From contig NZ_PQIG01000074.1 in assembly GCF_012349115.1 (NCBI RefSeq), forward strand, positions 1 to 64,000: a stretch of 64,000 nt of DNA, in the 5' to 3' direction. Shown here one piece after another: positions 15,081 to 49,691 of this stretch. This stretch comes from Rhizobium ruizarguesonis. Its GTDB lineage: Bacteria; Pseudomonadota; Alphaproteobacteria; Rhizobiales; Rhizobiaceae. The position numbers and the translations under genes were made by a program. How positions within the stretch are numbered: the first letter of the stretch is position 1; each line of letters opens with the position of its first letter. Under the pieces are notes generated by a model, which saw only the letters and a program-made list of their open reading frames with translations, searched no databases and was not told the DNA's origin.

Positions 15081-15154
15081 GCGGGTGTAGCTCAATGGTA
15101 GAGCAGCAGCTTCCCAAGCTGAATACGAGGGTTCGATTCCCTTCACCCGCTCCA
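15081..15154 (+). tRNA. tRNA-Gly(CCC)
   Basis: 74 nt with encoded CCA. Acceptor GCGGGTG pairs with CACCCGC, the D arm is GCTC-AATGGTA-GAGC, the anticodon loop TTCCCAA gives anticodon CCC, and the T arm is GAGGG-TTCGATT-CCCTT. The first anticodon-stem pair is a G-A mismatch. The gene sits at the left edge of an AT-richer accessory region. I found no second copy of its 3' end in the window, so use as an integration site is unproven. Confidence 0.93.
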
Positions 15155-19791: not shown

Positions 19792-19904
19792 GGTATACCC
19801 CCATGTAACCAGCGACTTGTTACTCGCTGTCCTGTAACTTCTGGGTTGACATCGCCTATTTGTGACACGGTAGCCTCGGGCCTAAACCTTAAGGTTACAA
19901 TATG
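19792..19904. repeat. Left 113-bp inverted repeat of recombinase cassette
   Basis: It matches the reverse complement of 24026-24138 at 112 of 113 positions. It contains several GTAAC/GTTAC/GTGAC half-sites, including the pair GTAAC-N9-GTTAC near 19804-19823, a layout like serine-recombinase binding sites. It ends exactly on the ATG of the recombinase, so the leader and ribosome site of that gene lie inside the repeat. Weaker similarity extends a few bases to the left. Confidence 0.92.
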
Positions 19905-20453
19905 GCCCGCATCGGTTACGCCCGAGTCAGCACGATTGATCAGGATCTACATGTTCAAGTCGAACGTCTTCGACAAGAATGCTGCGACATAGTCCGCTCG
20001 GAGAAGGTGTCCGGGGACAGCCGTGAAGGTCGCTCCGAACTTTCAACGGTTATTGAATTTCTCCGGGTGGGTGATGAACTGGTGGTGACCCGCCTTGATA
20101 GGCTCGGACGGGACACCCGGGATGTGCTCAACATCGTCCACGAATGCCAGCAACGTGGTGCGTTCGTGACGGTCCTCGACCCTCACGTTTCAACGCGAGG
20201 GGAAATGGGTTGCGTCATCCTCACGGTTCTCGGCATGGTCGCTCAGATGGAGCGCCGATTTTTGAAAGAACGGCAGCGTGAAGGTATTGCGCGAGCGAAA
20301 AATGAGGGCGTATACAAAGGCGGCAAGGCGCGCTTTGACGCCTCCCAAATTAGGCAACTACACCATGAGGGTGTGGGGCCTTCTGCCATAGCAGCCGCCG
20401 TGGGGTGTTCGCGAATGCAAGTGTATCGCATTTTGCGTGCACATCCTGAGTGA
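19902..20453 (+). CDS. Small serine recombinase (resolvase/invertase family)
   Basis: 183 aa, the length of Tn3-type resolvases and Din-type invertases. The catalytic domain has Ser10 in YARVST, with Arg8, Arg64 and Arg67 in the VVTRLDRLGRDTRD block. The hinge region reads MERRFLKERQREGIARAK, and a C-terminal helix-turn-helix (about 140-180: DASQIRQLHHEGVGPSAIAAAVGCSRMQVYRIL) follows. Its start codon is the final triplet of the left 113-bp inverted repeat. No DDE or tyrosine recombinase accompanies it. It most likely acts on the GTNAC-rich inverted repeats flanking the cassette; between inverted sites the expected product is inversion. Confidence 0.9.
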   Translation: MARIGYARVSTIDQDLHVQVERLRQECCDIVRSEKVSGDSREGRSELSTVIEFLRVGDELVVTRLDRLGRDTRDVLNIVHECQQRGAFVTVLDPHVSTRGEMGCVILTVLGMVAQMERRFLKERQREGIARAKNEGVYKGGKARFDASQIRQLHHEGVGPSAIAAAVGCSRMQVYRILRAHPE

Positions 20454-20902
20454 CGACATCTGACAGGGCACAGACCAAAGTGCGTAACGATGTCGCGCGC
20501 AACCGCCTAGGTAACCCGCGGACTGCCGAATCTCATGCACCCCACAAGCCGATCTGGGTAGTCGAAGCGATAGACAGGACTTTGCGGTTTGCCCGCATAA
20601 GCCCCGCTCAGTCGCCGTCTACGCCGCCCTCAAATTGGCAGGGGACCGACAACAGCGCTTTGCCGCCGCGGCCGGATTTTGGCCCATAGATCGCCCCTAG
20701 GTGTTGAGCGCGGTTTGCTTTTGGTTGCGCTATCACTCGCCCTTCTGAGGAGATCGGCTCGGCCATCCGAGATGCGGTTACCTTACTCACGGAGACGGTC
20801 GCAGGGCCTTACGGCTACGCTCAACCCAGGGCACCTTGCAAGAAACAGTTGCATTGGAATACGCTGGGAAGTATTCTTTCTTTAAACATAGGGGAGCGCG
20901 CA
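20454..20902. other. Gene-free spacer upstream of lysozyme-like operon
   Basis: About 450 bp with no recognisable gene between the recombinase and the GH24-like gene. Short open frames are present but lack domains or plausible ribosome sites. The promoter of the plus-strand lysozyme-protease-collagen operon is expected in the right part, where sequence near 20865-20890 becomes AT-rich. Confidence 0.5.
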
Positions 20903-21799
20903 ATGACTGTTGTCGAGCTTGCAGCATTGGTTCCTCTGCCGGGAGTTATTAGCCGTCGTTTGTTCGTCTCTCTACTGGCGGGTAGCACGGTTTCTCTGAT
21001 GCCGCTGGCAAGGTTCCGTGCGATCGCCGAAAGCCCAGCGGACGTTATTCAATCGGCTCTAAAAGATTTCAGCAATTCAGGCGAATTGTCTGCCGCCAAC
21101 TTCGGCTTTCGCGAGTTCGAGGAAAATTTCCCTCTGTTAAGCCTAGAACGCGCTCCAAGCCGTATTAAACCGTCTAAGCTAAAAATTTCAAAGACTGCCC
21201 GGGATCTAATCATAGCTTTCGAAGTGTCAAGCGAGGCAATCTACTCAGCCAATTATAGGAGACCAATATGGCCCGGAGGTCGCTCCGGTGCAACTATCGG
21301 CATTGGTTACGACCTCGGTTATGTGAGTACCGACGAACTGACGGAGAGTTGGGAGAGGATTTTAAACGGTCATGCAGAGTATCTGTCCATTTTAAAGATT
21401 GCCTGCGGCGTGACCGGGGATGCTGCCAAAGATCTTGTTCCAAAATTGTCTGATGTTGAAATAACGTGGGCTGTGGCAACCGAGCAATTCAATGTCGAAA
21501 TTCAACGCTATGTGACATTAACTCAGACAAGCTTACCCAACTTTTCAGCCCTATCGGAGGATTGCCGCGGTGCTTTAGTCTCTCTTGTTTACAATCGTGG
21601 ACCGTCGTTCGATGTGCCAAAGACGAGTGACCCCTCTGGGCGTTACCAAGAGATGCGAAATATCAGGCAGCTCATGGTGGAGAGAAAACTCGAAGATATC
21701 CCGAACGAGATCCGGAGCATGAGGCGGCTTTGGCCCGACGTTAGAGGATTGAAAAGAAGACGTGAGGCAGAGGCGGCATTATTCGAGCAGGGGCTTTAG
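20903..21799 (+). CDS. Tat-exported GH24-like lysozyme
   Basis: 298 aa from ATG 20903, preceded by GGGGAG at 20891-20896. The N-terminus has a twin-arginine motif in SRRLFVSLLAG (Arg18-Arg19), followed by a hydrophobic stretch, so Tat export is likely. The C-terminal part has the layout of T4-type lysozymes: Glu107 in LIIAFEVSSEAIYSANY, the glycine- and beta-rich SGATIGIGYDLGY, and the LVSLVYNRGPSF helix. It would cleave peptidoglycan glycan strands. It is the first gene of the operon inside the inverted-repeat cassette. A role as toxin or effector is possible but not shown. Confidence 0.75.
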   Translation: MTVVELAALVPLPGVISRRLFVSLLAGSTVSLMPLARFRAIAESPADVIQSALKDFSNSGELSAANFGFREFEENFPLLSLERAPSRIKPSKLKISKTARDLIIAFEVSSEAIYSANYRRPIWPGGRSGATIGIGYDLGYVSTDELTESWERILNGHAEYLSILKIACGVTGDAAKDLVPKLSDVEITWAVATEQFNVEIQRYVTLTQTSLPNFSALSEDCRGALVSLVYNRGPSFDVPKTSDPSGRYQEMRNIRQLMVERKLEDIPNEIRSMRRLWPDVRGLKRRREAEAALFEQGL

Positions 21800-21828
21800 A
21801 AAATGGGCGCCCACGTAACAAAGTTGGG

Positions 21829-22884
21829 GTGCTGACAATGCACTCACATCTTAGATGCGTTGCTCTCACGATGCTGTTGGCTGCTCAGGATCCAGGCGTG
21901 TCACGCGGAACGGAGGGTCCGCCTCCCCTGTCCCGGCGGGAAAGCGTTTCGCCGCAATCAGACTATTTTAAATTGGCCAAAATGGTAGGGCAAGTGATTC
22001 TGGAAGTCCCGGATCCTTCCGGCGGAACGACCACATCTAATGTTTGCTCGGCTCTGGCTATTTCTCAGCGATATATCCTCACAGCTCGTCACTGTTTTTT
22101 GAGCCCCTCAGGAGGGATGGTAGCTTATCTGAACTCCTATGTCTCTATGGGGCGCACGGAAAACAGCGTCAAGACCTACAAGTTGAAGCACGATTTTGCC
22201 GATCAAAGCGATATCGATGACTTCGTTGTGATAGCATCTGAGGAGCAAATCACGGAGTTCGCAGCACCCTTGCTGAAGTCATCGGAAAACCCGCTGAGCG
22301 ACGACAAAGATTTGTTCGTCCTCCATTACCCAGGTCCGGGTACTTTGGTCATAACGCGCATGGACTGCCATTCGTCTAATCCGGCAATCAACGGGAACTC
22401 ATTTTTCCATACCTGCGATACCGATCCCGGCAGTTCCGGTGCCCCTGTATTTGATGGAAGTTTCAACCTAATCGGGCTGCACTTAGAGGGTGGCCGTGCG
22501 GGCGATCCAAATTCTTCCAATCGTGGGGTCACAATCCAGGAGCTCTTGTCCAAGAGTGAAATCTTACGAGCAGCGTTCCAGGAGGCAAAAGTAGTGCAAG
22601 GCGCAGTCTCAACGGCTCCGGTTGTGGAATATGAATACCGTGTTTCGACTGGAGGTCGACTTATAAAACAAGGAAAAGGTTGGGTCTTCAAACGTGACGA
22701 TATGGCAAGCGCCTTGGTTGAACAGAAGAGTCCCGAAAGAATGTGGACGTTTTGGGATCCTAATCGTGATGTTGTATTGAGGTGGCCAATTCCTGGCGGT
22801 GATTTGCAGGTTAGATCAGCTGCCGGCGATCACGAATTCGAGATTATTGGAACAGTTTCTCAGACGAGTGGGCCGAAGAAATGA
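21829..22884 (+). CDS. Trypsin-like serine protease, secreted
   Basis: 351 aa from a GTG start at 21829; ATG 21838 is an alternative. The triad of chymotrypsin-fold proteases is visible: His88 in LTARHCF, Asp131 in DIDDFVVI, Ser203 in DPGSSGAPVF (a variant of GDSGGP). Cys73 and Cys89 could make the usual His-loop disulfide. The N-terminus (about 1-20) looks like a short signal peptide. A C-terminal tail of about 90 residues beyond the protease domain is not recognised. It sits 29 bp after the lysozyme-like gene and overlaps the next gene by 4 bp, so the three proteins are probably made together. Confidence 0.8.
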   Translation: MLTMHSHLRCVALTMLLAAQDPGVSRGTEGPPPLSRRESVSPQSDYFKLAKMVGQVILEVPDPSGGTTTSNVCSALAISQRYILTARHCFLSPSGGMVAYLNSYVSMGRTENSVKTYKLKHDFADQSDIDDFVVIASEEQITEFAAPLLKSSENPLSDDKDLFVLHYPGPGTLVITRMDCHSSNPAINGNSFFHTCDTDPGSSGAPVFDGSFNLIGLHLEGGRAGDPNSSNRGVTIQELLSKSEILRAAFQEAKVVQGAVSTAPVVEYEYRVSTGGRLIKQGKGWVFKRDDMASALVEQKSPERMWTFWDPNRDVVLRWPIPGGDLQVRSAAGDHEFEIIGTVSQTSGPKK

Positions 22885-23831
22885 GCTTTCGTGTGTTGAT
22901 AGCATCCCTTGTGATGGCGGCCGCGCATGTTCCCGCAGCGTCTCAGCAGCTACCGATCCGATACGGTCCTGGGAAAGTCATTACTTTAGACCAGTTGCCA
23001 ATGATGATGCGGCAGGGTGCGAGGAAGCTTCGGACCATTAGCCCCGAAAGGATTAACGAATACGTCAAGCATTTGCCGGAACTTATACTGGATGGTGCAA
23101 CACTTGAGATAATAGAGGGATTGGAAGATAGTTATGGTGAGAAGACAATTTCAGCGACGCGCATAAGGATGTTGAACGGCAGTAAGATCGTTACTAATGG
23201 CTACGATCTCGTTATTAACACTGCGGTCCTCGAATCTAGTGACGGGCAAATCGTTGCTTTCGAAGATCCAGTCGTTATACAGGCCGAAGTCGGCGCCAGC
23301 GGTCTTTCGGGGCGCCCCGGCGGGACACTTCTGCTCAATGTGGGGCGGGTCGAACTCGGTTCGTCACTTCATGTGAACGTGAATGGGGAGCCTGGGGAAC
23401 CTGGTGGTGATGGCGCTCCTGGTTCTCCAGGCACTGTCGGAGCGCGGGGGGAGGACGCAAGGTCCTTCGCAGAAGAGGCTTTTTTCAAATGCCGGCGTCC
23501 TGGGGGAGCAGGTGGGCCGGGAGGAAGAGGTGGACCAGGTCAACCGGGCGGAGCGGGTGGCGACGGCGGCGACGGCGGATATCTGGTATTGCGCGGCGAA
23601 ATTGCGAAGTCTCGACTGGCGATTCAGTTTACGGCGCTAGGTGGACAGAGCGGCAAGGGAGGCCAGGGCGGGCCTGGCGGACCCGGAGGAAAAGGGGGGG
23701 ACGGAGGACGTGGTTCTGCCGCATGTCCAGGCGGTCCGGCTGGCCCAGATGGCCCCCCTGGAGAAAAAGGCTTGCCGGGACCCAATGGGTCACCTGGCCG
23801 GGCGGGATCGATACGGCCTGAATTTGAATGA
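22881..23831 (+). CDS. Secreted collagen-like Gly-X-Y protein
   Basis: 316 aa, ATGA overlap with the protease gene. A signal peptide (about 1-21, ending ASQQ) is followed by a non-repetitive head of about 140 residues with beta-rich character (TLEIIEGLEDSYG, NGYDLVINTAVLES). The rest is mostly Gly-X-Y or Gly-Gly-X repeats (around 168-195, 208-232 and 252-312, for example PGEPGGDGAPGSPG). These are interrupted by a short Cys-containing segment and by a YLVLRGEIAKSRLAIQF beta stretch. It is probably an extracellular or periplasmic structural protein. Repeats like these slip easily, so length may vary between strains. Confidence 0.78.
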   Translation: MSFRVLIASLVMAAAHVPAASQQLPIRYGPGKVITLDQLPMMMRQGARKLRTISPERINEYVKHLPELILDGATLEIIEGLEDSYGEKTISATRIRMLNGSKIVTNGYDLVINTAVLESSDGQIVAFEDPVVIQAEVGASGLSGRPGGTLLLNVGRVELGSSLHVNVNGEPGEPGGDGAPGSPGTVGARGEDARSFAEEAFFKCRRPGGAGGPGGRGGPGQPGGAGGDGGDGGYLVLRGEIAKSRLAIQFTALGGQSGKGGQGGPGGPGGKGGDGGRGSAACPGGPAGPDGPPGEKGLPGPNGSPGRAGSIRPEFE

Positions 23832-24025
23832 GGGTGTGAAGGGACGACGGAGAAGCGTCGAATGCGATGGTACGATCCGCTAGGCCGTCGGTCTTCCGAA
23901 GCAAATATGCTCTGAAACTCGATGATAGCCATTCCGATGACTGTCGCTGACGATCAGGTCGTTGCGAATTCGCGTCTCAGTGACCATGGCCGCTCGACGA
24001 CCAGACGCACACATTCCGTATGTGG
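23832..24025. other. Spacer between collagen-like gene and right inverted repeat
   Basis: About 195 bp. On the minus strand the ATG carried by the right repeat opens a 24-codon frame (23954-24028) ending at TGA. It has no recognisable product and is probably a by-product of the duplicated recombinase leader. Confidence 0.45.
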
Positions 24026-24138
24026 CATATTGTAACCTTAAGCTTTAGGCCCGAGGCTACCGTGTCACAAATAGGCGATGTCAACCCAGAAGTTACAGGA
24101 CAGCGAGTAACAAGTCGCTGGTTACATGGGGGTATACC
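24026..24138. repeat. Right 113-bp inverted repeat of recombinase cassette
   Basis: Reverse complement of 19792-19904 with one mismatch. Its inner edge also ends on an ATG (minus strand, 24026-24028), duplicating the leader and start codon of the recombinase. A diverged, ungapped relative lies at 31742-31796. Confidence 0.92.
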
Positions 24139-24181
24139 CGATGTCACAAACGGCTTTTCTTCACACGCCCATCTCCAAAAT

Positions 24182-24388
24182 CTAATCCCCGAAGAACCGG
24201 ATCGGCTTATATTGCCGATGCGCGATGATCAGGCTCCTGTCGCGCTGCATGATGGAGGTTTCCTCGACCTGCTGGCCGTATTGGTCGATGAAATCATGCG
24301 GGAAGGCGGAGCCGGGGGGGATTTGGTTAGCTTGCTGCACGGCTGGCCACTATAGGTGATGCTGCCGGGGATGGGTTCGAGCCCCGGC
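24182..24388 (-). pseudogene. Truncated, frameshifted copy of the lipoprotein gene at 31889-32167
   Basis: Read on the minus strand it encodes the C-terminal two thirds of the small lipoprotein (GLEPIPGSITYSGQP..., then AFPHDFIDQYGQQVEE and KPIRFFGD before TAG). The 5' end with signal peptide and lipobox is absent. A run of seven G at 24314-24320 makes a one-base deletion relative to the intact copy, breaking the frame. Homology ends near 24388. It lies only 44 bp outside the right cassette repeat, so insertion or recombination at this point probably caused the truncation. Confidence 0.85.
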
Positions 24389-24435
24389 CGTCTGTTCGCC
24401 GCCTTTTGAAGGCGCTTCGTGATCTTTTATGAAAA

Positions 24436-24497
24436 GGGTTGCGCGCAGGCATCGGCTCCTACAAGGAGACAGATGGCGCCTCGGCCGCGCGCAACCC
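24436..24497 (-). terminator. Structured element downstream of the DUF995 gene
   Basis: An 11-bp perfect inverted repeat (GGGTTGCGCGC at 24436-24446, complement at 24487-24497) encloses about 40 nt holding a smaller CTCCT-ACA-AGGAG hairpin. On the minus strand it is followed by TTTTC. It lies just past the DUF995 stop, so termination is the simplest role, but its size would also suit a small RNA. Confidence 0.5.
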
Positions 24498-24509
24498 CTA
24501 GCTTCGCCT

Positions 24510-25019
24510 TTATCTGGTCTTACTGACGGTCGTCTCAATTCTCCCCAATTGAGACCTCACGTAGTCGCCGCGGCGAAGCTTTGCGAATTCGTCGGTGGCT
24601 TGTGCCGGTGCCCTCTTGAAAACGTACCATTGACCGTCCGGTTCGCGTTTCTGATAGATCAGGCCGCCCTTCTTGCGGTGGCTGAAGCAGGTGATTGCCG
24701 TCGCCGTTCCGGTCTTGGCGTGCCAGTCGGCGTTGAAGCAGAGTTTACCCGACTCCGTGATGAACCAGCGGCCCATGCCGAAGGACGGCGAGCCATTTTC
24801 CCGCGACCAGGCGGTAAAGCGACGCGCCTTTGTGGAGAAGTAGCCGGCGCCGGCTTTCCACATCCAGGAATTCTGGTTGTAGAGCCGATAGATTTCCGCG
24901 CTGCTCATCGGCTTTGCGGTCTCGATCCCCGCAGGCTCATTGGTTCCGGCAGCGGACGCGGCCGTGACGATACCGCTGGTCAGGGCCACGGCCAGGAGCA
25001 TTTTTTGAAGCATGGACAT
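24510..25019 (-). CDS. DUF995-family exported protein
   Basis: 169 aa. A signal peptide (MSMLQKMLLAVALTSG, cleavage near AASA-A at about 24) precedes a domain of the DUF995 type. It has the NSWMWKAGAGYFSTKARRF start, the GMGRWFITESGKLCFNADWH core with a cysteine, and CFSHRKKGGLIYQKREPDGQWY with a second cysteine. The two cysteines probably pair. DUF995 proteins are common in rhizobia and their function is unknown. It lies 18 bp after the GH26-like gene on the same strand, so it may be the last gene of the polysaccharide operon. Confidence 0.8.
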   Translation of the reverse strand: MSMLQKMLLAVALTSGIVTAASAAGTNEPAGIETAKPMSSAEIYRLYNQNSWMWKAGAGYFSTKARRFTAWSRENGSPSFGMGRWFITESGKLCFNADWHAKTGTATAITCFSHRKKGGLIYQKREPDGQWYVFKRAPAQATDEFAKLRRGDYVRSQLGRIETTVSKTR

Positions 25020-25037
25020 GTTCAGGTTCCTTCTTGT

Positions 25038-26003
25038 TCAATTGATGCTTTCGTGGACGAGCCGCCAGTCGGGGCGGCCATAGCCGTCCGGCCACGGATA
25101 GACTTCACGGTCGTTGAAGTAGATAACGGCGCTCAGGGCCGGGAACTGGGGATAGCGTTTCGTTACGCTCTCAGCCCAGTTTCGCACGAAGGAATCGTCG
25201 CCTTCGTAGCCGAGTTCGGCAACCATGATGGGCTTGCCGTAACCAGCGACACGGGCGTATCCGGGCGCAAGGTGCTCGGCAAACGTCTGGTCACGGCCAG
25301 TCTTGTCCCTGTCGTATTGTTCCAGGCCAAAGACCGAGAGCCCGATGAGATCGACGACATCGTTGCCGGGATAAAAGGCTTGAAGCCCCTCATTGCCCTT
25401 CGGTGACCACATGTATTTGGCCGTCCTCAGGTGGACCTTGCAGACCTCCACCATCCGGCGATAGGCCTTGGCATAATCGGCGCCCTGCCAATGCGACCAG
25501 GAGAACTGGCTGTCGGTTTCGTCCATTTCCTGTCCCCAGCGAATGATCACCGGACTTTTCAGCTTGGCAGCAGTCGAGCAGACGGCGGCCATGTTCGCAT
25601 CGCGCGAACCGTCCAGGATGCTGTGCAGCAGTTCCTGCGAGGTTTGGCGAAAATCGGATGACCAGGTCCAGGGCTCGACCGAGATCAGCAGGGTGCGGCC
25701 ACGCGCTTGCGCATAATTGTCGGCGAGGGCGAGCGTGCCCAGATCGACATCTTCCCAGGGCAGGAAGAGGTGTTCGATCTTCGAATTGGGCGAGGCGCCT
25801 AAATCTCCGTGCGGATCATAGGCGCCGAACGTGATCGACTCCTTCGTGACGACCGGCATTTTGGTCGGCGGCGCGATGGACGATGTCGTCATTGCAAGCG
25901 GCTGCCCTTCGGCAAAGCTGCCCAGAGCGGTCGGCAGGACCGCGACTCCCGACAGCAACAGGCCGGTTAACGACAACAGGGCTATTTTGGATGGGCTATG
26001 CAT
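25038..26003 (-). CDS. GH26-like glycoside hydrolase, exported
   Basis: 321 aa from ATG 26003, which overlaps the end of the upstream synthase gene by 8 bp. The N-terminus is a signal peptide or membrane anchor (KIALLSLTGLLLSGVAVLPTAL). The TIM-barrel domain shows the GH26 pair: the acid/base Glu in IIRWGQEMDE and the nucleophile Glu in IMVAELGYEGD. Substrate-binding aromatics lie in VEPWTWSSDF and FSWSHWQGADYAKAYRRM. GH26 enzymes cleave beta-mannans or mixed-linkage beta-glucans. Here it probably trims or releases the polymer made by the adjacent GT2 synthase. Confidence 0.82.
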   Translation of the reverse strand: MHSPSKIALLSLTGLLLSGVAVLPTALGSFAEGQPLAMTTSSIAPPTKMPVVTKESITFGAYDPHGDLGASPNSKIEHLFLPWEDVDLGTLALADNYAQARGRTLLISVEPWTWSSDFRQTSQELLHSILDGSRDANMAAVCSTAAKLKSPVIIRWGQEMDETDSQFSWSHWQGADYAKAYRRMVEVCKVHLRTAKYMWSPKGNEGLQAFYPGNDVVDLIGLSVFGLEQYDRDKTGRDQTFAEHLAPGYARVAGYGKPIMVAELGYEGDDSFVRNWAESVTKRYPQFPALSAVIYFNDREVYPWPDGYGRPDWRLVHESIN

Positions 26004-27906
26004 TGTGTAGTTCCTCCACGCTTGGCCGCAAATCCGGGTGAGCGGCATCCGTTCTCAGTTGGATCTCCTCCGGATCGGAAATCCATCGTGGTTTGAAGAA
26101 GATCGTGCGCAGGGCGGTCCCGCCCCGGCCTGCACCGGAGACGGCATAGCGCTCTTCGAACAGCTGAAGGCGGCCGCTGCCCCAGGCGAGTGCCTCGGTC
26201 GCATCCTTTCCGCGCATGATGGTTGCAGCCCCCGGCAGCGCGACGAGCGCAAGAAGCACGGCCGCCATCGCCGGACGGTAGAAACGCGGGGCCGCCGCAA
26301 CCGTATTTTCCTTCGAATGGCGCCCGACGATGACCAGCAGCAGCGCGCAGTAGATTGCCGCGTTCAGGACGGTAAAGAAGTACCCCCCTTTGGAGGCGCC
26401 GGCATCGCCGATTGCCAGGGCGGGCAATACCGCCATGAGCGCCAGCAAAGCGTAGGGCGCCAGGACACGCACCGGCAGCAGATCGACTTCGGACCGCCCT
26501 TTCGGCGTGACGCGGAAATCGACGAAGGAGCCTGTCACAAAATCGTGCACCGCAGCCAGCGTGCCGGCGAGCGCCCAGGGCCAGCGCGCGAAGAGAAAGA
26601 GCATGCATTCCCAGCTCAGGATCTTGGCGTCGTAGGGGCGGAACGAGCTGCTGGCGCGCCAGCGATAAGCCATCACCACGAGAGCGATGGAAAGCGGTGC
26701 GAAATGCGCCAGGAAATCGGGATAGGTCACCGTCACGAAGTTCTGGCCGCGCACGAGCGCGATGATCGGCATCGCAAACATGAGCAACATAAAGAACGCA
26801 AAAAGCGGATACCAGAGTTGCGAAAAGAGGAACTGGAACTTGAGCCGGGCCGGCAGCCGGCCGACGAGGCTCGGCGAGTACCGCAACAGGAGCATGACCA
26901 GGCTGCGCGACCACTGGAATTCCTGCGTCACGAGATCGCTGAAGGTTCTGGGGCCGTCACCATGGGCGATGGCATCCAGCGCATGCACACCCCGCCAGCC
27001 GCCGGCATTCATCATCAATGTCGTCGAATGGTCTTCAGCCAACTCCGGACCGAGGCCGCCGATCTGTTTGAGGGCGACGGTACGTACCGCGTAATGCGAC
27101 CCTATGCACAGCGGCGCCAGGCCGCCGCCATTGTAACCGGCTTGGAGCGAGCCATGCATGCTGGCCTCGGCATAGAGCCTTCCACGTGCAGACCAGCTTT
27201 CGGAAGCGTTCTTGTCGCAAATGCTGGGGGCCGAGACATAGCCGACCTTTGGATCGGCGAACGGACGCAGCATGTGGAAGAGATAGTCGGGCGCGGGAAC
27301 ATGATCCGCATCGAGTTGCGCCACGAAATCGTAGCTGTTGTAGCCGTAGTGATCGTAGAAGAAGGCGAGGTTGCCTTCCTTGCACCGCGTGCGTCGGGGC
27401 CACGACGTCCGATGATAATCGGATCGCCCCTTGCGGGTCGAGACGAAGACCCCGTGCCCGGAGCACCAGTCAAGAGTCTCGGGTGAAGGGTCTTCGTCGG
27501 CAAGCCAGGTGTCGTGTTCCACCTCCTGGGCAAGCATTGCCAGCAGGGTTTCAGTGACGACCGAGAAGGGTTCCGCCGGCGCCTTGGTCACGACCATGGC
27601 CACTCGACTGCCCGCCGGCAGGCGCAAGGGACCGTTCGGTCTTGCCGCCCGATAGAAGACGACGATGAAATAGGCCGGCAGAGCGGTAACCCAGGCGAGA
27701 ACGAGGCTCACCGTAATTGTGCCGAAAGCATCGACGTGATGGCGCGGCTCCAGCCACCAGATCCAGAAATAGGCGAAGGCGCAGGCCCATACGGCCGCCA
27801 GGAACAGATATTCGGCCCGCCGATGTCCTGTCAGAACCGGGACAAGAAGCGGCTCGTGGGAGGGTTCGGGAGCATGCGTCGCTTGGGTAATCGCAAGTTG
27901 GGTCAC
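25996..27906 (-). CDS. Processive GT2 polysaccharide synthase
   Basis: 636 aa, an inner-membrane family 2 glycosyltransferase of the cellulose/beta-glucan synthase type. Two N-terminal helices lie near residues 32-52 and 62-86. Catalytic motifs are DED (about 137-139), DADH (about 199-202), ED in LAEDHST (about 291-292) and QEFQWSRS (about 328-335). Five or more C-terminal helices follow from residue 355. I chose the GTG at 27906, which overlaps the galE stop as GTGA; the longer frame would run deep into galE. No PilZ domain is evident. Donor and product cannot be read from sequence, but the neighbours supply UDP-galactose and UDP-xylose. Confidence 0.85.
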   Translation of the reverse strand: MTQLAITQATHAPEPSHEPLLVPVLTGHRRAEYLFLAAVWACAFAYFWIWWLEPRHHVDAFGTITVSLVLAWVTALPAYFIVVFYRAARPNGPLRLPAGSRVAMVVTKAPAEPFSVVTETLLAMLAQEVEHDTWLADEDPSPETLDWCSGHGVFVSTRKGRSDYHRTSWPRRTRCKEGNLAFFYDHYGYNSYDFVAQLDADHVPAPDYLFHMLRPFADPKVGYVSAPSICDKNASESWSARGRLYAEASMHGSLQAGYNGGGLAPLCIGSHYAVRTVALKQIGGLGPELAEDHSTTLMMNAGGWRGVHALDAIAHGDGPRTFSDLVTQEFQWSRSLVMLLLRYSPSLVGRLPARLKFQFLFSQLWYPLFAFFMLLMFAMPIIALVRGQNFVTVTYPDFLAHFAPLSIALVVMAYRWRASSSFRPYDAKILSWECMLFLFARWPWALAGTLAAVHDFVTGSFVDFRVTPKGRSEVDLLPVRVLAPYALLALMAVLPALAIGDAGASKGGYFFTVLNAAIYCALLLVIVGRHSKENTVAAAPRFYRPAMAAVLLALVALPGAATIMRGKDATEALAWGSGRLQLFEERYAVSGAGRGGTALRTIFFKPRWISDPEEIQLRTDAAHPDLRPSVEELHNA

Positions 27907-28889
27907 GCGCGCGCCTCCAGTCCGAAGAACGGAGCCGCCGTCCGCACGATGGTTTCGAGGTCGGAATATCGAGGCTGGAAGCAGAGCGTCTCGCGGGCCA
28001 GGCTGGCGTCGGCGTAGAGGCTGGGCGGATCGCCCGGCCGGCGTGGATGGATGACGACCGGGACTTCGCACCCGGTCGTTTCCTGGATCACGCGCAGGAC
28101 TTCCCTGATGGAAAAACCCCGCCCGGTGCCGAGGTTGACAGCAAGGTTTGCTCCGCCTTTGGCGAGATGGGTGAAGGCCTGAACATGGGCGCGAGCGAGA
28201 TCTGCGACGTGAATATAGTCCCTTATGCAGGTCCCGTCGGGGGTGTCGTAATCATCGCCGAATATCTCCAGGTGCGGAATCCGGCCGGCCGCGGCCAGCA
28301 GCGCCCGCGGAATGAGATGGGTTTCCGGAACGTGCCATTCGCCAAGCTCGCCGTCCGGATCGGCTCCACAGGCATTGAAGTAACGCAGGGCAACATACCG
28401 CAGGCCGTAGGCCGCCGCATAATCGGCGAGCATATGCTCGAAGATCAGCTTGGTCTTGCCGTAGGGATTGATCGGAGCCTTCGGTAACGTCTCATCGATC
28501 GGCAGCACGGAGGGGACGCCGTAGACGGCACAACTCGATGAGAAGATGACGTTCTGAAGCCCCGTCTGCCGGCAGGCATCGATAAGCGACAACGCACCGC
28601 AGACATTGTTGTTGTAATATTTCGCTGGGTTTTGCACGGACTCGCCCACGTAGGCCGAGGCGGCAAAGTGGATGACGGCATCGGGAGCATATTTCTCGAT
28701 GGCCTCGATCAGGCATGGCGTGTCGAGGACGTCACCTTCGACGAAAGGGCCCCAGCGCACGGAAGAACGGTTTCCGGTCGTGAGATTGTCGTAGACGACA
28801 GGCTCAATCCCCTCCGAGCGGAGGAGCTTGGCGGTGTGGCTGCCGATATAGCCGGCGCCGCCCGTGACAAGGACCCGGGGCGCATCCAT
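27903..28889 (-). CDS. galE: UDP-glucose 4-epimerase
   Basis: 328 aa, an extended SDR that interconverts UDP-glucose and UDP-galactose. The NAD motif is VTGGAGYIGSHT. The catalytic Ser is in FSSSCAVYG and Tyr/Lys in NPYGKTK, followed by RYFNACGADPDGELGE, the typical GalE signature. Its stop overlaps the GT2 start (GTGA) and its ATG overlaps the stop of the upstream epimerase gene, so the three are tightly coupled. It may serve this polysaccharide specifically; a housekeeping exoB elsewhere would not be surprising. Confidence 0.92.
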   Translation of the reverse strand: MDAPRVLVTGGAGYIGSHTAKLLRSEGIEPVVYDNLTTGNRSSVRWGPFVEGDVLDTPCLIEAIEKYAPDAVIHFAASAYVGESVQNPAKYYNNNVCGALSLIDACRQTGLQNVIFSSSCAVYGVPSVLPIDETLPKAPINPYGKTKLIFEHMLADYAAAYGLRYVALRYFNACGADPDGELGEWHVPETHLIPRALLAAAGRIPHLEIFGDDYDTPDGTCIRDYIHVADLARAHVQAFTHLAKGGANLAVNLGTGRGFSIREVLRVIQETTGCEVPVVIHPRRPGDPPSLYADASLARETLCFQPRYSDLETIVRTAAPFFGLEARA

Positions 28890-29935
28890 CAGACCGCCTC
28901 CAGTTCGCGTGCCGGACGGGTAAGAAGGCCATCGAAATAGTCGATCGTCTGACGCAGGCCGCCCGACAAGTCGATCTTCGGCCGCCAGTCGAGTTCCTGC
29001 ATGGCAAGCGAAATATCGGGGCGACGCTGACGGGGATCGTCAACCGGCAGAGCGCGATGGATGATTTGCGACCGGGAGCCGGTCAATCCGATCACCTGCT
29101 CGGCCAGCTCCCGGATCGTGAATTCTCCCGGATTGCCGAGATTGACAGGCCCCGTCAGCGACGACGGTGAGGCCATCATGCGGACCATGCCGCCGATGAG
29201 ATCATCGACGAAACAGAACGAGCGGGTCTGGGAACCGTCGCCATATATCGTGATGTCTTGCCCCGTCAGGGCCTGAACGATGAAATTCGAGACGACGCGG
29301 CCGTCGTCCGGACGCATCCGCGGGCCGTAGGTGTTGAAGATGCGGATGATCTTGATCTCGACGCCGTGCGTGTTGTGGAAGTCGAAGAACAGCGTCTCGG
29401 CGCACCGCTTGCCCTCGTCATAGCAGGAGCGCGGCCCGAACGAATTGACGTTGCCCCAGTAGCTTTCGACTTGCGGGTGGACGTTCGGGTCGCCGTAGAC
29501 TTCGGAGGTGGATGCCTGAAGTATGCGTGCGCCGGTGCGCGCGGCCAGCTCCAGAAGGTTGAGGGAGCCCAGCACGCAGGTCTTTGTCGTATGGACCGGA
29601 TCGGCCTGATAATGCGGGGGCGATGCCGGACAGGCAAGGTTATAGATCTCGTCGACTTCCAGATCGATCGGGTGGACGATATCGTGGGCGACGACATTGA
29701 AGCGATCGACTCGCTCCAGATGGGCGATATTGCGCCGCATGCCGGTGGAAAAGTTGTCGAGGCAGATCACCTGGTGTCCGGCGGCCAAAAGCGTCTCGCA
29801 CAGATGTGATCCGAGGAAACCTGCACCGCCGGTGACAAGAACTCTCTTGGGAGCACGAGATATTCCGGATGGATAATTTGCATCACGAGCCGAAATTTGC
29901 TCAGAGCGCGCACGAATCTTACCAAGATAGTTCAC
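28889..29935 (-). CDS. UDP-glucuronate decarboxylase-like NAD epimerase
   Basis: 348 aa, an extended SDR resembling UDP-xylose synthase. The NAD motif is [14 protein letters not shown]. Family marks are [11 protein letters not shown], the [10 protein letters not shown] serine block, the YDEGKR catalytic Tyr/Lys and [21 protein letters not shown]. It would convert UDP-glucuronate to UDP-xylose. A 30-residue extension precedes the Rossmann fold. It is the first gene of the operon and overlaps galE by one base (TGATG). Other sugar-nucleotide dehydratases share parts of this pattern, so the exact reaction is likely but not certain. Confidence 0.85.
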
Positions 29936-30289
29936 GACTACCTCCCGTGTTTTCAGATTTTGCTATGGGATCTTCGATCTTTACTTCGTCATACCGCGAA
30001 CATAAGTCGTTCGATCATGCGAATATTTTATTCGTCCGGTTTTTCTTTTGGAAAGAACCGATGTTTATTTAGATACAGCTAAGGGAGGCAATTGTCGTTA
30101 TCCGCACGTCCTGGAAATTATCACTCCGTACATTTCGGAGCGAAAAGGAATATGATAAACAACTTATGAAGGTAACTCTTCGAGCACTTCCGCTTTTTCA
30201 GACGGAGTTCTGCGGAGATTTCAGCCGCAAAAACAATTGCTTTTCTCAATTTCCATGGCTCGGGTCGGGTTATGCGCTGGAGGAATTGG
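29936..30289. promoter_or_regulatory. AT-rich divergent promoter region, polysaccharide operon / AraC gene
   Basis: About 350 bp between the divergent epimerase and AraC-family genes, much richer in A and T than the flanks (for example CGAATATTTTATTCG near 30020). A small hairpin, CTCCG (30124-30128) with CGGAG (30136-30140), is present. The AraC-type regulator probably acts here, by analogy with other divergent pairs. Confidence 0.5.
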
Positions 30290-31438
30290 ATGGCTACAGG
30301 GTCTGAATCCGACGATGATCCTGCCGCGGAACAGGAACGGCCGGCGCATATGGAGCGGCGGCGCTGGCCGCGTGAACCGGCCATGCGCAAGGAACGCCCA
30401 CCCCATGCCTCCCCTGCACTCGTGCCGCTGCGATTCTCGACGCAGGACCTGCCACCGGCAGAACAATTCCAGGCCTGGCGGGCGCATATGGCGCCGCTCG
30501 TGGATGTTCATCTGCCGGAGGGAAAATCCCCGGAAGACGGGTTCCTCGCGGAGCAGATCGGCTGGCATCTCGGCGATATCCTGATCGTCCAGCAGCGCGC
30601 GCAGGCCCACAGATATGTCCGCGATCAGGCCATGCTTCGATCGAGCCCTATCGACCATTGGAACGTCGGCCTGCAGCGCAGCGGCCAAGCCTGGACCGAG
30701 GTCAACCGTCGTGTCACCGAGACCGGTGCCGGCGAGATACTTTTCATGTCTCTCGGCAGCCCCTATCGCGGTCGGATGACCGATACCGAAGCGTTGCTCG
30801 TGTTCCTGCCGTATGAGCTGCTGGCGCGCGATGCGAGCCTTCTCCAGAGCGCCGGCAACACGGTTCTTTCGGGCAGCCACGCCGAGTTGCTCACGGGCTA
30901 TCTCACGGGCCTCGAAACGAACCTCGGCAATCTGACGATAGAGGAAGTGCCCCGGATCATCCAAACCATCGGCGATATGGTCGTTGCGGGCGCCGCATCG
31001 TCCACAAGGACTGATACCGGTCAAAACCAGACCAACATGGGATTGATGGAGCGGGCGCACCGCTACATTCACGTCAATCTCCATTCGGAAAACTTGACAC
31101 CAGACATGATGTGCCGCGCGTTGGGGATTTCGCGTACGCGGCTTTACCAGCTGTTTGAGGCGAGCGGAGGCGTGCTCAATTATATTCGCAAGCGGCGATT
31201 GCTGCAGGCCTATGCGGATCTCAGCAATTCGGCCGACCACAGGCCGATTTCAGAAATCGCAGAAGCCGCCGGCTTCGAGGTCGCCGCCAATTTTACGCGC
31301 GCCTTCATCCACGAATTCAGGCTGAGCCCGCGTGAAATCCGAAGGACCGTGGCAACTCAACAGCGGCCGGCTCCGGCCATCCGCTCCACGCGGGGTTACG
31401 GAAAAACGATCGGTGATTGGCTGGCCCTGAAGGGTTGA
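30290..31438 (+). CDS. AraC-family transcriptional regulator
   Basis: 382 aa. I chose ATG 30290 because GGAGGAA (30279-30285) sits at proper distance; ATG 30272 is an alternative. After a charged, Pro/Arg-rich N-terminal tail of about 40 residues comes an AraC-binding-like sensor domain (about 45-220, with HRYVRDQAMLRSSPIDHWNVGL). The C-terminal double helix-turn-helix (about 260-355) contains MCRALGISRTRLYQLFEASGG and ISEIAEAAGFEVAANFTRAF. It is divergent from the UXS-galE-GT2-GH26 operon and is the obvious candidate regulator of it. Confidence 0.88.
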   Translation: MATGSESDDDPAAEQERPAHMERRRWPREPAMRKERPPHASPALVPLRFSTQDLPPAEQFQAWRAHMAPLVDVHLPEGKSPEDGFLAEQIGWHLGDILIVQQRAQAHRYVRDQAMLRSSPIDHWNVGLQRSGQAWTEVNRRVTETGAGEILFMSLGSPYRGRMTDTEALLVFLPYELLARDASLLQSAGNTVLSGSHAELLTGYLTGLETNLGNLTIEEVPRIIQTIGDMVVAGAASSTRTDTGQNQTNMGLMERAHRYIHVNLHSENLTPDMMCRALGISRTRLYQLFEASGGVLNYIRKRRLLQAYADLSNSADHRPISEIAEAAGFEVAANFTRAFIHEFRLSPREIRRTVATQQRPAPAIRSTRGYGKTIGDWLALKG

Positions 31439-31888
31439 TCTAACAAGTTTCAGGCGGATCGTCATCCAGGTGCTGTCGGGGTTGACTGCCTACGGTTAAC
31501 GCTGGCTCCCTGACTGGCGTCGTCGACGAGGACGCGCGCGCGGCGCTGAGCCAGATGCAAAAGGACAACAACCTCAAGATCACCGGCACGGTAATGGCAA
31601 GCTGTTCCACTTGGGGCACACCACCCGTGGTGCCCCCACGTCACCTGGCCGGCCGCGCCAATGACCGGGCGATATGCAGCATCGCAGAATAGACAGTTTT
31701 GCGATGCCAGCGCAGAATTGAGCTCTCGCTGAAGCGAACATGTCACGTCAAGCTTTAAGCTCACCGCGGCCGCGTCACAAATAACCGGTGTCACGGTTCG
31801 CGCCAGATGCGATCTCAGGGCCTCCGTTCGCAATTGAGGGTATATTTCCCGTCACCGCTCCATCTCCCGCAAACCACGCCGACCAAGC
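31439..31888. other. Spacer with remnant sequence between AraC gene and lipoprotein gene
   Basis: About 450 bp without a credible gene. It contains the diverged repeat at 31742-31796. Near 31680-31725 CGCAGAATAGACAG and TTTTGCGATGCCAGCGCAGAATTGAG repeat the word CGCAGAAT. A minus-strand open frame spans most of it but has no recognisable domain, so I treat it as debris of past rearrangement. Confidence 0.45.
31742..31796. repeat. Diverged copy of the cassette inverted-repeat end
   Basis: Ungapped alignment with 24032-24086 shares AAGCTTTA, CGTGTCACAAATA-like CGCGTCACAAATA and a following GTGTCA/ATGTCA, roughly two thirds identical by eye over 55 bp. Both copies lie shortly before the 3' end of the same small lipoprotein gene in the same orientation. 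Confidence 0.6.
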
Positions 31889-32167
31889 CTAATCCCCGAA
31901 AAAGCGGATCGGCTTGTATCGGCGATGTGCGATCATCAGGCTCCGGTCGGGTTGGATGATGTAGGTTTCTTCCACCTGCTGGCCGTACTGGTCGATGAAA
32001 TCATGCGGAAAGGCGGAACCAACAGGCGATTTGGTGAGCTTGGTGCGCGGTTGGCCGCTATAGGTGATGCTGCCGGGGATGGGTTCGAGGCCCGGTCCGC
32101 TGTAGCTGACGGTGTTGCATCCCGCGACAACGAGCGTGCCGACGAGGCCGATGATTGCAGCTTTCAT
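31889..32167 (-). CDS. Small lipoprotein, unknown function
   Basis: 92 aa from ATG 32167. GGGAGGG lies 6-7 bases upstream on the transcript; the ATG at 32173 is too close to it. The lipobox is LVVAGC, with Cys as the lipidated residue. The mature part (GLEPIPGSITYSGQPRTKL, then HDFIDQYGQQVEETYIIQPDRSL) looks like a small beta domain and ends KPIRFFGD. A truncated copy lies at 24182-24388. No function is known to me; homologous small lipoproteins occur in rhizobia. Confidence 0.78.
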   Translation of the reverse strand: MKAAIIGLVGTLVVAGCNTVSYSGPGLEPIPGSITYSGQPRTKLTKSPVGSAFPHDFIDQYGQQVEETYIIQPDRSLMIAHRRYKPIRFFGD

Positions 32168-35190: not shown

Positions 35191-35858
35191 GGAAATGTCA
35201 CCCGATTGACGGGGCTGCTCGCGCGCCCGGTGCTTTTGAAATCAATTGTTGCAGAAAACGCTGCTTCAATATCGCGGTTGAGGGATTACGTTTGGGCTGA
35301 CGCTTGCATCATGCGATCGGCTGGCGGGGTCCGATGTCGTCGCAACAAATAAAAGGCGATATTCTTTAATTCCGCGCTAACAGAGGGCGGCGGATGACTG
35401 TGATTTTTAGGGGCTGAATTGTCATGGGAATCGAGACGACGCCTCAAATCTCATCCTTGTCCAATCGGGCTTTGCTTTCGCAAGCGGCCCTGGCGACTGT
35501 TCGGGTTCAATGGAACGGCGGACGGAGACCCACGCTCTCCCACGGGCTTGGTGTCCCAAAGGTGCCGGCAAGGCGGATGCAAGGAGCGCGCACGGTACGC
35601 CGTTCATTGCCTTTCGCTTGCGCTCAGCGCATTCGCGGCTTTGCCGCTCACCCCCTCATCGCCTCGCTATCGCTCCGGAACTTCTCCCCGTTTACGCCGC
35701 TGGGCAGAAGAGGTATGTGGCAGCCGCCGTCGTCCCCTGCTCCGCGACCACTGGAATGAACAGAAGAAGTGGGCACCTGACAGTTGGCCTCCAACCCGGG
35801 GCGGATGGGTGCGATCCGCCCCCTACCACCCAATCCAACTGGTACAAAATTTCCGAAT
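35191..35858. other. Intergenic repeat-bearing region
   Basis: About 670 bp without a credible gene between the divergent chemoreceptor and ankyrin genes. It holds the second 88-bp repeat copy (35478-35565). To the right are decayed intergenic-element fragments (CCCCTCATCGCC, CTTCTCCCCG near 35660-35690) like parts of the RIME-like elements. Confidence 0.55.
35478..35565. repeat. 88-bp dispersed repeat, copy 2
   Basis: Same orientation as 1-88 with one difference. After it the sequence continues CGGCAAGGCGGATG, similar to the ends of the RIME-like elements, whereas copy 1 continues differently. It probably belongs to a larger intergenic mosaic. Confidence 0.85.
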
Positions 35859-47357: not shown

Positions 47358-47484
47358 AAGCCATCTCCTGTTTGCCCTTGGAATAAGGTCGCGGCGCGGC
47401 GCCCGCAAGCCCTTTCCGGAATTGGCCGCTTCGCCTCTGAAATAGGACTTGAGTTTTTTTGTGGCCGCCGCCAGATGCGGGCCG

Positions 47485-47533
47485 ACGCATGTCGCGCAAA
47501 AGTGTGCAGCGGTTTTGCGGCAACGACATGCGT
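47485..47533. repeat. 49-bp palindromic repeat
   Basis: Reads ACGCATGTCGCGCAAAAGTG... and ends ...CGACATGCGT. Its reverse complement matches 51540-51586 almost base for base. It lies between divergent genes, inside an open frame that runs upstream of the methyltransferase but is not part of it. Confidence 0.8.
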
Positions 47534-47558
47534 AAAAGAAACAGCGACAGGTCCATTG

Positions 47559-48491
47559 ATGCAGCCCCACCAGCTTTCCTCCGGCGATGTCATTGCCGAC
47601 CGCCGCGCCGACTATGCCAGGATGCTCGAGGAAGGCGGCGAGCCGGAAGCGGCTGCCGAGCTGATGGAGCAGGCCCTCGAACTCGTGCCCGCCTGGGCAG
47701 CCGGCTGGTATCGCCTCGCCACCTATCTGGAAGAGGCGGGCAGGGGTGAAGCCGCGATCGAGGCCTATCGCAAGACGCTTGCCCTCGATCCCGAAGACAT
47801 TTTCGGCGCTGCCCTCAAACTCACCCTTCTCGGCGACGCGGCCACGCCTGACCTGCCGCCGAGCCGCTATGTCGAGCGCCTCTTCGACGACTATGCCGAT
47901 CGGTTCGAATCAGCACTTGTCGATAAGCTCGACTACAATGTCCCGCAGAAGCTCGCAGCGCTCGTCGCCTCCACCGGCAGGCGTTACGAACTGGCCGTCG
48001 ATCTCGGCTGCGGCACCGGCCTGCTCGGCCCGGAAATCCGTAGCTTTGCCGGCCGCCTCGAAGGCTTCGACCTCTCGCAGAACATGCTGGCGAAGGCTGC
48101 CGAGAAACGGGTCTATGACAGTCTCGCCCAGGCCGATCTCTCGCTCGCGCCCGAGCTCTCCGGCCTCTTTGCAGATGCGGCGCGCCGTCGCGCCGACCTG
48201 GTGACGGCAGCCGATGTGCTGATGTATCTCGGCAATCTCGAAAGCGTCTTTGCCATCGTTGGAGCGCTCGCTGCACCAGGCGCCGATATCGCCTTTTCCG
48301 TCGAGGATGCAGGTGAGGGCGACGGCTTTCACCTCGCTCCGTCGCTGCGCTACGCCCATTCGGAAAGCTATGTCAGGATGCTTCTTGCCCGTCACGGCTT
48401 CCAAATCCTCAAGATCGTCAAATCGGTCATTCGCAAAGATGGCGGAAAACCGGTTTCCGGCATTCTGTTCCTTACGCATAAGCCCGTGTGA
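47559..48491 (+). CDS. TPR-containing SAM-dependent methyltransferase
   Basis: 310 aa from ATG 47559; the frame upstream crosses a palindromic repeat and is excluded. Residues about 15-85 form TPR-like helices (RADYARMLEEGGEPEAAAELMEQAL, WYRLATYLEEAGRGEAAIEAYRKTLALDPED). A class I methyltransferase domain (about 135-305) follows with the SAM motif AVDLGCGTGLLGPEI and the acidic GFDLSQNML. It resembles the family around NodS/UbiE-like methylases of unknown substrate. It stands alone between the divergent DUF6460 gene and the first YitT gene. Confidence 0.85.
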   Translation: MQPHQLSSGDVIADRRADYARMLEEGGEPEAAAELMEQALELVPAWAAGWYRLATYLEEAGRGEAAIEAYRKTLALDPEDIFGAALKLTLLGDAATPDLPPSRYVERLFDDYADRFESALVDKLDYNVPQKLAALVASTGRRYELAVDLGCGTGLLGPEIRSFAGRLEGFDLSQNMLAKAAEKRVYDSLAQADLSLAPELSGLFADAARRRADLVTAADVLMYLGNLESVFAIVGALAAPGADIAFSVEDAGEGDGFHLAPSLRYAHSESYVRMLLARHGFQILKIVKSVIRKDGGKPVSGILFLTHKPV

Positions 48492-48514
48492 GCGAACATT
48501 TCTTGCGATTTTTT

Positions 48515-48539
48515 AATAGGTCAGCATTGCTTACCTATT
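48515..48539. promoter_or_regulatory. AT-rich 25-bp palindrome upstream of first yitT-like gene
   Basis: AATAGGT (48515-48521) pairs with ACCTATT (48533-48539), with an inner AGC/GCT around ATT and one mismatch. It lies 23 bp after the methyltransferase stop and 163 bp before the YitT start, so it may be an operator or a weak terminator. Confidence 0.4.
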
Positions 48540-48701
48540 TCGCTTGATCGAAAGGCCGAAAAACCCGATACTGCACCGCATCGGCAGAGAGCTTGGCAAT
48601 TAACGCCGAGGCGCTCGGGCTCCTTTCATGATCCAAAATTCCGTCGCGCGCAGATCTTCCCAAGCGCGTTCTTGAACTCGTCTGCCGTGGAGACTGGCGA
48701 C

Positions 48702-49337: not shown

Positions 49338-49341
49338 TTTT

Positions 49342-49390
49342 ACGCATGCCCTTATCGCAAAATCGCCGCACAGTTTTGCGCGACATGCTC
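49342..49390. repeat. 49-bp palindromic repeat
   Basis: Reads ACGCATGCCCTTATCGCAAA... and ends ...CGCGACATGCTC, 4 bp after the first YitT gene. It has the same orientation as the copy at 51540-51586, which also follows a YitT gene, so repeat and gene may have been duplicated together. Confidence 0.8.
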
Positions 49391-49490
49391 TAACGTTACA
49401 AATCGGTAAGCCATTCTAAACAAAACGTAACTTGCCTGTGATCGGTCTCGGCGCCAAACTCTGCTCGCGCCGGATTTGATGAGGTGAACT

Positions 49491-49658
49491 ATGTCAGATT
49501 TGGAAAAGCTTGTGAGACGCCGTATGCAGGAAGAACGCGCCAAGGGCGCTTCCGCAGAAGAAATTGCGAAAGTCGTCCGAGACATATTCAACAGCATGGA
49601 CCTCTCGGGCAATCGGTTTGACGCCGTTGCCGTACGAGCCACCAGGGATCACGAGTGA
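49491..49658 (+). CDS. Small charged protein, 55 aa
   Basis: ATG 49491 follows GAGGTGAAC at good distance and the frame ends at TGA 49656-49658. The product begins MSDLEKLVRRRMQEERAKGA, continues with an amphipathic helix (AEEIAKVVRDIFNSMDL) and ends RATRDHE. It is too short to place in a family, but the ribosome site, helix periodicity and codon use support a real gene. The next sequence, CCGACCCGAGATTTTCGGGTCGG, makes a hairpin (49669-49691) like a terminator on its 3' side. Confidence 0.6.
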   Translation: MSDLEKLVRRRMQEERAKGASAEEIAKVVRDIFNSMDLSGNRFDAVAVRATRDHE

Positions 49659-49668
49659 TCCGATATTC

Positions 49669-49691
49669 GACCGACCCGAGATTTTCGGGTC
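49669..49691 (+). terminator. Hairpin after the 55-aa gene
   Basis: CCGACCCGA pairs with TCGGGTCGG around GATTT, 10 bp past the small-gene stop. It carries TTT only inside the loop, with no long T-run after it. It would end plus-strand transcription weakly, and lies 36 bp beyond the convergent AhpD gene. Confidence 0.5.

Follow-up and report, generated by a model that had tools for sequence, protein, structure and literature searches.

The gene content and the arrangement described here resemble three known systems. The first is the Sinorhizobium meliloti locus for the arabinose-containing polysaccharide APS, which has the order uxs1-uxe-apsS-apsH1-apsE-apsH2 together with the regulator CuxR (PMC7902896). 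The second comprises the cis-mobilizable elements (CIMEs), which accrete in tandem with integrase-bearing elements at the 3' ends of tRNA genes (PMC5704250). The third is the orphan immunity arrays of the Vibrio type VI secretion system (T6SS), for which it has been proposed that homology anchors a new module at one end while illegitimate joining attaches it at the other, leaving remnants of older genes; such events are described there as rare (PMC5361080). Here we analyse a stretch of 64,000 nucleotides (nt) of Rhizobium ruizarguesonis (contig NZ_PQIG01000074.1, positions 1 to 64,000; hereafter the window), in which a 7.05 kb block of six genes, an APS-type polysaccharide cassette, lies between two copies of the end of a small lipoprotein gene. 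We consider it likely that this cassette has spread recently among Rhizobium chromosomes, mostly via the 3' end of tRNA-Gly(CCC) beside the lipoprotein gene, and that it is moved by an integrase in the manner of a cis-mobilizable element. No published description of the cassette or of its tRNA-Gly site was found among reports judged mostly by title and the start of the abstract. A surface polysaccharide locus of a type that is under second-messenger control in Sinorhizobium would thus travel as a small cassette between Rhizobium species. Since the tRNA site comes with an identifiable integrase, both the transfer of the cassette and its consequences for attachment or symbiosis can be tested in strains such as R. 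johnstonii 3841, where the cassette stands alone at tRNA-Gly.

Gene content of the cassette

The cassette and its genes are listed below (G and L numbers denote genomes and loci throughout).

24396-31440, no strand assigned: APS-type polysaccharide cassette of 7.05 kb, present almost in full in 15 of 120 Rhizobium genomes, that of the window included
24510-25019, minus strand: apsE-like gene, DUF995 (Pfam, comparison with the APS locus)
25038-26009, minus strand: apsH1-like gene, GH26 (weak Pfam match, 23.3 bits against a cut-off of 20.2; comparison with the APS locus)
25996-27906, minus strand: apsS-like GT2 synthase gene (Pfam, comparison with the APS locus; start codon picked by eye)
27903-28889, minus strand: uxe-like UDP-sugar 4-epimerase gene (Pfam, comparison with the APS locus)
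28889-29935, minus strand: uxs-like UDP-xylose synthase gene (Pfam, comparison with the APS locus; NCBIfam matches all below their cut-offs)
30272-31438, plus strand: cuxR orthologue, AraC-type regulator (Pfam, comparison with the APS locus, phmmer)

An earlier note on this DNA had called the genes between the two lipoprotein copies, and Pfam bore these calls out: DUF995, GH26 (weakly), GT2, two NAD epimerase/dehydratases and AraC. The cassette shares with the S. meliloti locus the order uxs-uxe-apsS-apsH1-apsE and an adjacent, divergent cuxR orthologue. Identity to S. meliloti 4H41, where the gene order is the same and cuxR is likewise divergent, amounts to 66% for cuxR, 83% for uxs, 80% for uxe, 78% for apsS and 64% for both apsH1 and apsE. 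The same order with divergent cuxR recurs in five of the seven loci of other species that were examined (out of 80), apsE or cuxR being positioned differently in L112 and L132. There are two differences from the S. meliloti locus: the cassette has no room for apsH2, only 114 nt separating the end of apsE from its edge (within the block itself), and it is a small unit found at tRNA-Gly or on plasmids.

The AraC-type protein matched PDB entry 5NLA over residues 10-385 (phmmer E-value 4.1e-167), and the two share the motif RRWPR. The entry is listed as a putative transcriptional regulator; we take it to be CuxR, and RRWPR is presumably the RxxxR pair that binds cyclic di-GMP (c-di-GMP). Because of the orthology to the S. 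meliloti locus, we infer that the cassette directs synthesis of an arabinose-containing APS under c-di-GMP control.

The tRNA-Gly(CCC) site and the distribution of the cassette

Two features define the chromosomal site of the cassette in the window.

15081-15154, plus strand: tRNA-Gly(CCC), whose 3' end is the insertion site and the left border of a 16.7 kb insert; unnoticed in the earlier note
31889-32167, minus strand: intact resident lipoprotein gene, 92 amino acids (aa) (alignment, gene order of relatives)

Searches of related genomes returned the gene order dcd, tRNA-Gly(CCC), lipoprotein gene, MCP gene, which we take as ancestral. The tRNA-Gly and lipoprotein genes were placed in 120 Rhizobium genomes, and the 48 genomes with both on one contig at this site were scored. 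G005 and G016, with the two genes on different contigs, were excluded, and the remaining unscored genomes either gave no lipoprotein match at E-values up to 1e-30 or had their sole match away from tRNA-Gly; for G007 the tRNA end used in the distances was taken from a separate search. The gap between tRNA and lipoprotein gene measured 12-30 nt in 20 of the 48 genomes, 18 of them without the block and two (G111 and G130) with the block elsewhere. Short inserts of 429 and 720 nt were present in two genomes, other DNA of 2.4-34 kb occupied the site in 14, and inserts of 7.1-44 kb containing the block were found in 12, the corresponding distance in the window being 16.7 kb. The earlier note had suggested looking for relatives that lack the block but keep the lipoprotein gene, and such genomes, with the gene intact, do exist. 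An insertion hotspot thus has the lipoprotein gene as its resident neighbour, and this accounts for the gene's place beside the block: next to tRNA-Gly(CCC) is where it normally lies. Among the other inserts, that of G009 (L040:3380-10160) is 6.8 kb long and encodes, as judged by eye from translations, a TetR-like regulator, an RND efflux pair and a short-chain dehydrogenase; the inserts in G098, G100 and G094 are of nearly equal size.

The cassette itself was searched for with positions 24396-31480 as the nucleotide query against the 120 genomes, the two best places per genome being scored. Among the matches listed, the block was nearly whole in 15 genomes, the 14 others being 95-98% identical to that of the window, and the next matches were at most 79% identical with partial coverage only. 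The ends of the block are sharp: on the left they fall at query positions 1-26 and on the right at 7043-7085, where 7043 is the end of cuxR. In 12 of the 15 carriers the block lies at tRNA-Gly, and in G005, G111 and G130 it lies elsewhere. A scan of genome contigs with the GH26 protein retrieved 10 loci of at least 93% identity, including those of R. leguminosarum Norway, Vaf-46, R. johnstonii 3841, R. laguerreae FB206, R. anhuiense, R. redzepovicii, USDA 2370 and one isolate labelled Rhizobiales. Two more carriers, R. sophorae and WYCCWR10014, have the cassette at tRNA-Gly. The cassette was also present over at least 80% of its length in 18 plasmid records. Three of these plasmids were inspected. 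In two of them a LacI-type sugar transporter locus lies on one side of the cassette and a recombinase gene near repABC on the other, and in the third its neighbours are different.

Divergence from the window, which served as sole reference, was measured at third codon positions for all six genes of the block and for as many as four genes in its flanks. In all 13 genomes with both kinds of value, every block gene (1.2-7.9%) was less diverged than every measured flanking gene (5.9-23.7%). The contrast is clearest in G063 (2.8-4.6% in the block, 16.8-23.7% in the flanks) and weakest in G025 (3.1-4.3% and 5.9-9.5%), and the three copies away from the tRNA show a somewhat higher divergence of 4.1-10.7%. 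These values bear on the alternative that the block is ancestral in the species that carry it and has been lost elsewhere, its high identity being due to constraint. All 15 carriers do belong to a single genus, as dictated by the design of the search, and among the matches listed the only carrier of at least 93% identity outside Rhizobium was one contig labelled Rhizobiales; however, the third positions of all six block genes are less diverged than those of every measured flanking gene in the 13 genomes, and the cassette occupies different places on chromosomes and plasmids, so that we regard this alternative as very unlikely.

Cassette edges and the candidate integrase

Two degenerate copies of the tRNA end were recorded in the window.

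31845-31862, plus strand: degenerate attR, tRNA-Gly 3' end with 8 nt exact; the intact 18-nt form occupies the homologous place in G076, G106, G123 and G139
24159-24176, plus strand: possible degenerate tRNA-Gly 3' end, candidate remnant of an old att site; longest exact match 6 nt, not significant alone

The block starts 16-18 nt past tRNA-Gly in 3841, Vaf-46, R. laguerreae FB206, G108, R. sophorae and WYCCWR10014, and 90 nt past it in G063; in G106 and G123 it is preceded by a copy of the tRNA end of 22 or 20 nt. At the right edge, before the lipoprotein gene, the exact sequence TTCCCTTCACCCGCTCCA, which equals the last 18 nt of the tRNA, was found in four of the 12 loci (G076, G106, G123 and G139). 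The right repeat of R. laguerreae FB206 is intact. Chance matches to the 18 nt, sampled in 500 random 500-nt stretches of the window, reached at most 11 nt, with a mean of 7.4. Six-frame translation, read by eye, assigned no origin to the ~300 nt to the right of cuxR (31441-31740), and only the first 27 nt (in G025) or 42 nt (in G091) of this stretch were matched.

Pfam detected no integrase among the six genes of the block, and a tblastn search with the integrase of the site gave no match in the window at E-values up to 1e-3. Nine of the 120 genomes, G005 included, encode an integrase that shares at least 78% identity with the G005 enzyme (E-values up to 1e-100), and in all nine its gene lies 175-188 nt past tRNA-Gly(CCC); three more distant relatives (49-55%) lie elsewhere. 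We take this enzyme to be of the P4 type; the NCBIfam model PRK09692.1 matches it below the cut-off. The likeness to P4-type integrase islands at tRNA genes consists in this close-knit family at a constant distance from tRNA-Gly(CCC) in nine genomes, and the difference in that neither the window nor the cassette yielded an integrase of this kind. Because the cassette encodes no integrase of its own, we propose that it was probably moved by the tRNA-Gly-linked enzyme of other islands at the same site. In G025 and G123 integrase and block lie within one insert, as described for CIMEs that stand in tandem with integrase-bearing elements (PMC5704250), which is only suggestive of cis-mobilization; the G123 integrase ends three codons early. 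The genome from which the window derives has six matches to the integrase family, four of the six being listed.

As in CIMEs, the cassette targets a tRNA 3' end, has tRNA-end repeats at both edges in G076, G106 and G123, carries no integrase or transfer genes among its six genes as judged by Pfam, and stands in tandem with other DNA at the same site in G123, G106 and the window. It differs from CIMEs in that the window copy retains 8 nt of the repeat on the right and has a lipoprotein fragment in place of the left repeat, in that the repeat is decayed or missing in eight of the 12 copies tested, in that excision and cis-mobilization are only presumed here, and in that the same cassette also resides on plasmids away from this tRNA.

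Several observations weigh against integrase-driven spread through the tRNA site. The site-linked integrase accompanies the block in only two of the 12 tRNA-located carriers (G025 and G123), and that of G025 is shortened to 369 aa. Where the right-edge 18-nt repeat is not intact, the longest match is 8-11 nt: it is decayed in 3841, Vaf-46, G108, G091 and the window, and among the 12 loci tested it was not seen in G025, G063 and G122. The 8 nt in the window are close to the chance mean and are recognised only by their place in the alignment. No integrase, relaxase or excised circle has come to light for the cassette, and all divergence comparisons rest on one reference. Because copies in three of the 15 genomes and in the 18 plasmid records lie elsewhere with nearly the same ends, integration at the tRNA cannot have been the sole route, and the fixed ends may be merely those of a transcription unit. 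On a wider reading, the cassette would be a non-autonomous mobile unit of operon size whose ends are nearly fixed; it would move in trans among tRNA-Gly(CCC) and several plasmid sites and provide rhizobia with a surface polysaccharide switched by c-di-GMP, its successive arrivals being recorded in the nested lipoprotein gene ends. This reading is offered only tentatively and seems to us doubtful as a whole.

Lipoprotein fragments and resolvase sites

The features on the left side of the cassette, together with the site on its right, are the following.

24182-24395, minus strand: 3' fragment of the lipoprotein gene, truncated and frameshifted (alignment to the intact gene)
19792-19904, plus strand: S1, res-like upstream site of the serine resolvase gene, 81-83% identical over 54 nt to the region upstream of homologous resolvase genes in G018 and G005
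19902-20453, plus strand: serine resolvase/invertase gene (PF00239) belonging to a different element at this tRNA site
24026-24138, minus strand: S2, inverted 99% copy of S1 (113 nt), which holds the left motif 24031-24083 (repeat search)
31741-31793, minus strand: S3, degenerate copy of the resolvase site, the right motif; 74% identical to part of S2 and unmatched in 16 other block copies

The earlier note had observed that the block is framed by the same 3' part of one lipoprotein gene in the same orientation, the left copy being truncated and frameshifted, and this description proved accurate. Positions 24182-24395 and 31889-32103, both on the minus strand and 7707-7708 nt apart, are about 86% identical over 214/215 nt in a local alignment (85.6% in another), with 87% in each of two ungapped pieces; the local score of 273 compares with 30 for the best of 200 simple shuffles. 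The left copy corresponds to the last 215 of the 279 nt of the gene, the first 64 nt with the start codon and signal peptide being absent, and a 1-nt gap near 24313 shifts its frame. At the junction between fragment and block there is a short GC-rich stretch common to the lipoprotein gene and the block edge.

The left fragment is present in four of the 15 carriers (the window, G025, G139 and G091), always in the order fragment, block, gene, and with three different left neighbours among the four. Eight of the 12 carriers with the block at tRNA-Gly gave a single lipoprotein match, namely the resident right-hand gene (E-values up to 1e-30, at which shorter fragments may escape). In some phages the 3' end of a gene is replaced at attB; the possibility that the lipoprotein gene was itself the attB of the cassette was rejected on account of these eight loci. 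G025 and G139 have an additional, second lipoprotein fragment of 129 nt. Between the two successive fragments left of the cassette G025 contains a predicted 491-aa gene (L031:17289-19222), and the corresponding region of G139 (L158:15882-17809) has the same spacing and gene end. In R. anhuiense (G122, L073:11595-11642) the cassette abuts on its left a 48-nt stretch from the end of the MCP gene (93.8%, E-value 3e-15), which is the resident gene farther downstream; this is a possible parallel to the lipoprotein fragment.

The left fragments did not form a single clade in a tree of the 215 nt, which carries little signal and has no support values, and they perhaps stem for this reason from more than one event; either several events or later exchange of the composite via lipoprotein sequence could account for the pattern. 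A single origin of the fragment was not supported by this tree, the power of which is low.

The earlier note had proposed that a duplication event, or homologous recombination between such copies, could have inserted the block or could remove it. The block does behave as a discrete, recently moved unit, but homologous recombination between the framing lipoprotein copies is not the main cause, and we judge it unlikely that such recombination carried the block in or can carry it out. The direct repeat is real, the order fragment-block-gene recurs in four genomes beside three different left neighbours, and the scatter of the fragments in the tree fits later exchange through lipoprotein sequence; recombination between the two copies, which share 32 nt as their longest exact stretch, could also delete the block. 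Nevertheless, no left copy was detected in 11 of the 15 carriers, three carriers had no lipoprotein match within ~10 kb and thus lack both copies, the very finding that the note had named as contradicting its proposal, and tRNA-end repeats mark the edges in three genomes free of the fragment (G076, G106 and G123). As an account of the original insertion, recombination between the copies is already refuted by the carriers lacking both. Repeats of neighbouring-gene ends can be insertion scars rather than recombination sites that moved cargo, and an accretion scar, not the cause of insertion, is the best reading of the left lipoprotein fragment.

A repeat-end motif precedes each lipoprotein copy, as had been noted (24031-24083 and 31741-31793, 74% identical). 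A pattern derived from the motif hit the window three times, the best further copy being S1, and had no hit in 100 shuffles. The motif corresponds to a region, res-like in appearance, that is conserved immediately before a serine resolvase gene; homologous resolvase genes with the conserved upstream region sit in the tRNA-Gly islands of G018 and G005. With this conservation, a reading of the TGTnAC-rich motif as a transposon end was set aside. In the 16 other copies of the block that were examined, the first 53 nt of the motif found no match (E-values up to 1e-3). For that reason the motif is not part of the cassette, and a composite element framed by resolvase motifs was rejected, S3 being unmatched beside the same 16 copies. 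It might still be supposed that the resolvase mobilises the block through S1, S2 and S3, since S2 and S3 are related to the region conserved upstream of the resolvase gene, flank the block in the same orientation, which would allow excision, and the resolvase gene ends 3.6 kb to the left of S2. Yet S3 was unmatched in the 16 other copies and is only 74% like S2, and in R. sophorae the single lipoprotein gene is preceded by no more than a short, closely similar stretch that resembles the outer end of S2, so that mobilisation of this kind appears highly improbable.

Returning to arrival via tRNA-Gly, the layout of the window suggests the following as the simplest course. A resolvase-bearing element probably occupied the tRNA-Gly site first, because S2 and the possible tRNA-end remnant precede the left fragment and a similar stretch exists in R. 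sophorae. The cassette would then have arrived from another strain together with its own attR and lipoprotein copy. On the right it would have been anchored by lipoprotein homology, and on the left joined to the resident gene at the short GC-rich microhomology, the old 3' end being left behind as the fragment; repeated events at the site would generate successive fragments such as those of G025 and G139. The same mechanism, leaving remnants of older genes, has been proposed for the Vibrio T6SS arrays, where it is likewise deduced, with the difference that the remnant here is the end of a resident lipoprotein gene by a tRNA and not of cargo.

Further features of the window include the region 19792-24138, in which the resolvase gene and three others (a trypsin-like gene and two that Pfam did not match, one of the latter glycine-rich and collagen-like as judged by eye) lie inside the 113-nt inverted repeats of 99% identity. 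The second, inverted copy is unusual in that the left repeat is the resolvase's own upstream region. An 88-nt direct repeat (99%) is found at 1-88 and 35478-35565, 35 kb apart. Finally, the region 47480-51593 contains a diverged direct duplication (48750-49208 and 50892-51350, 71-78% identical), around which three copies of a 51-58 nt sequence are located.

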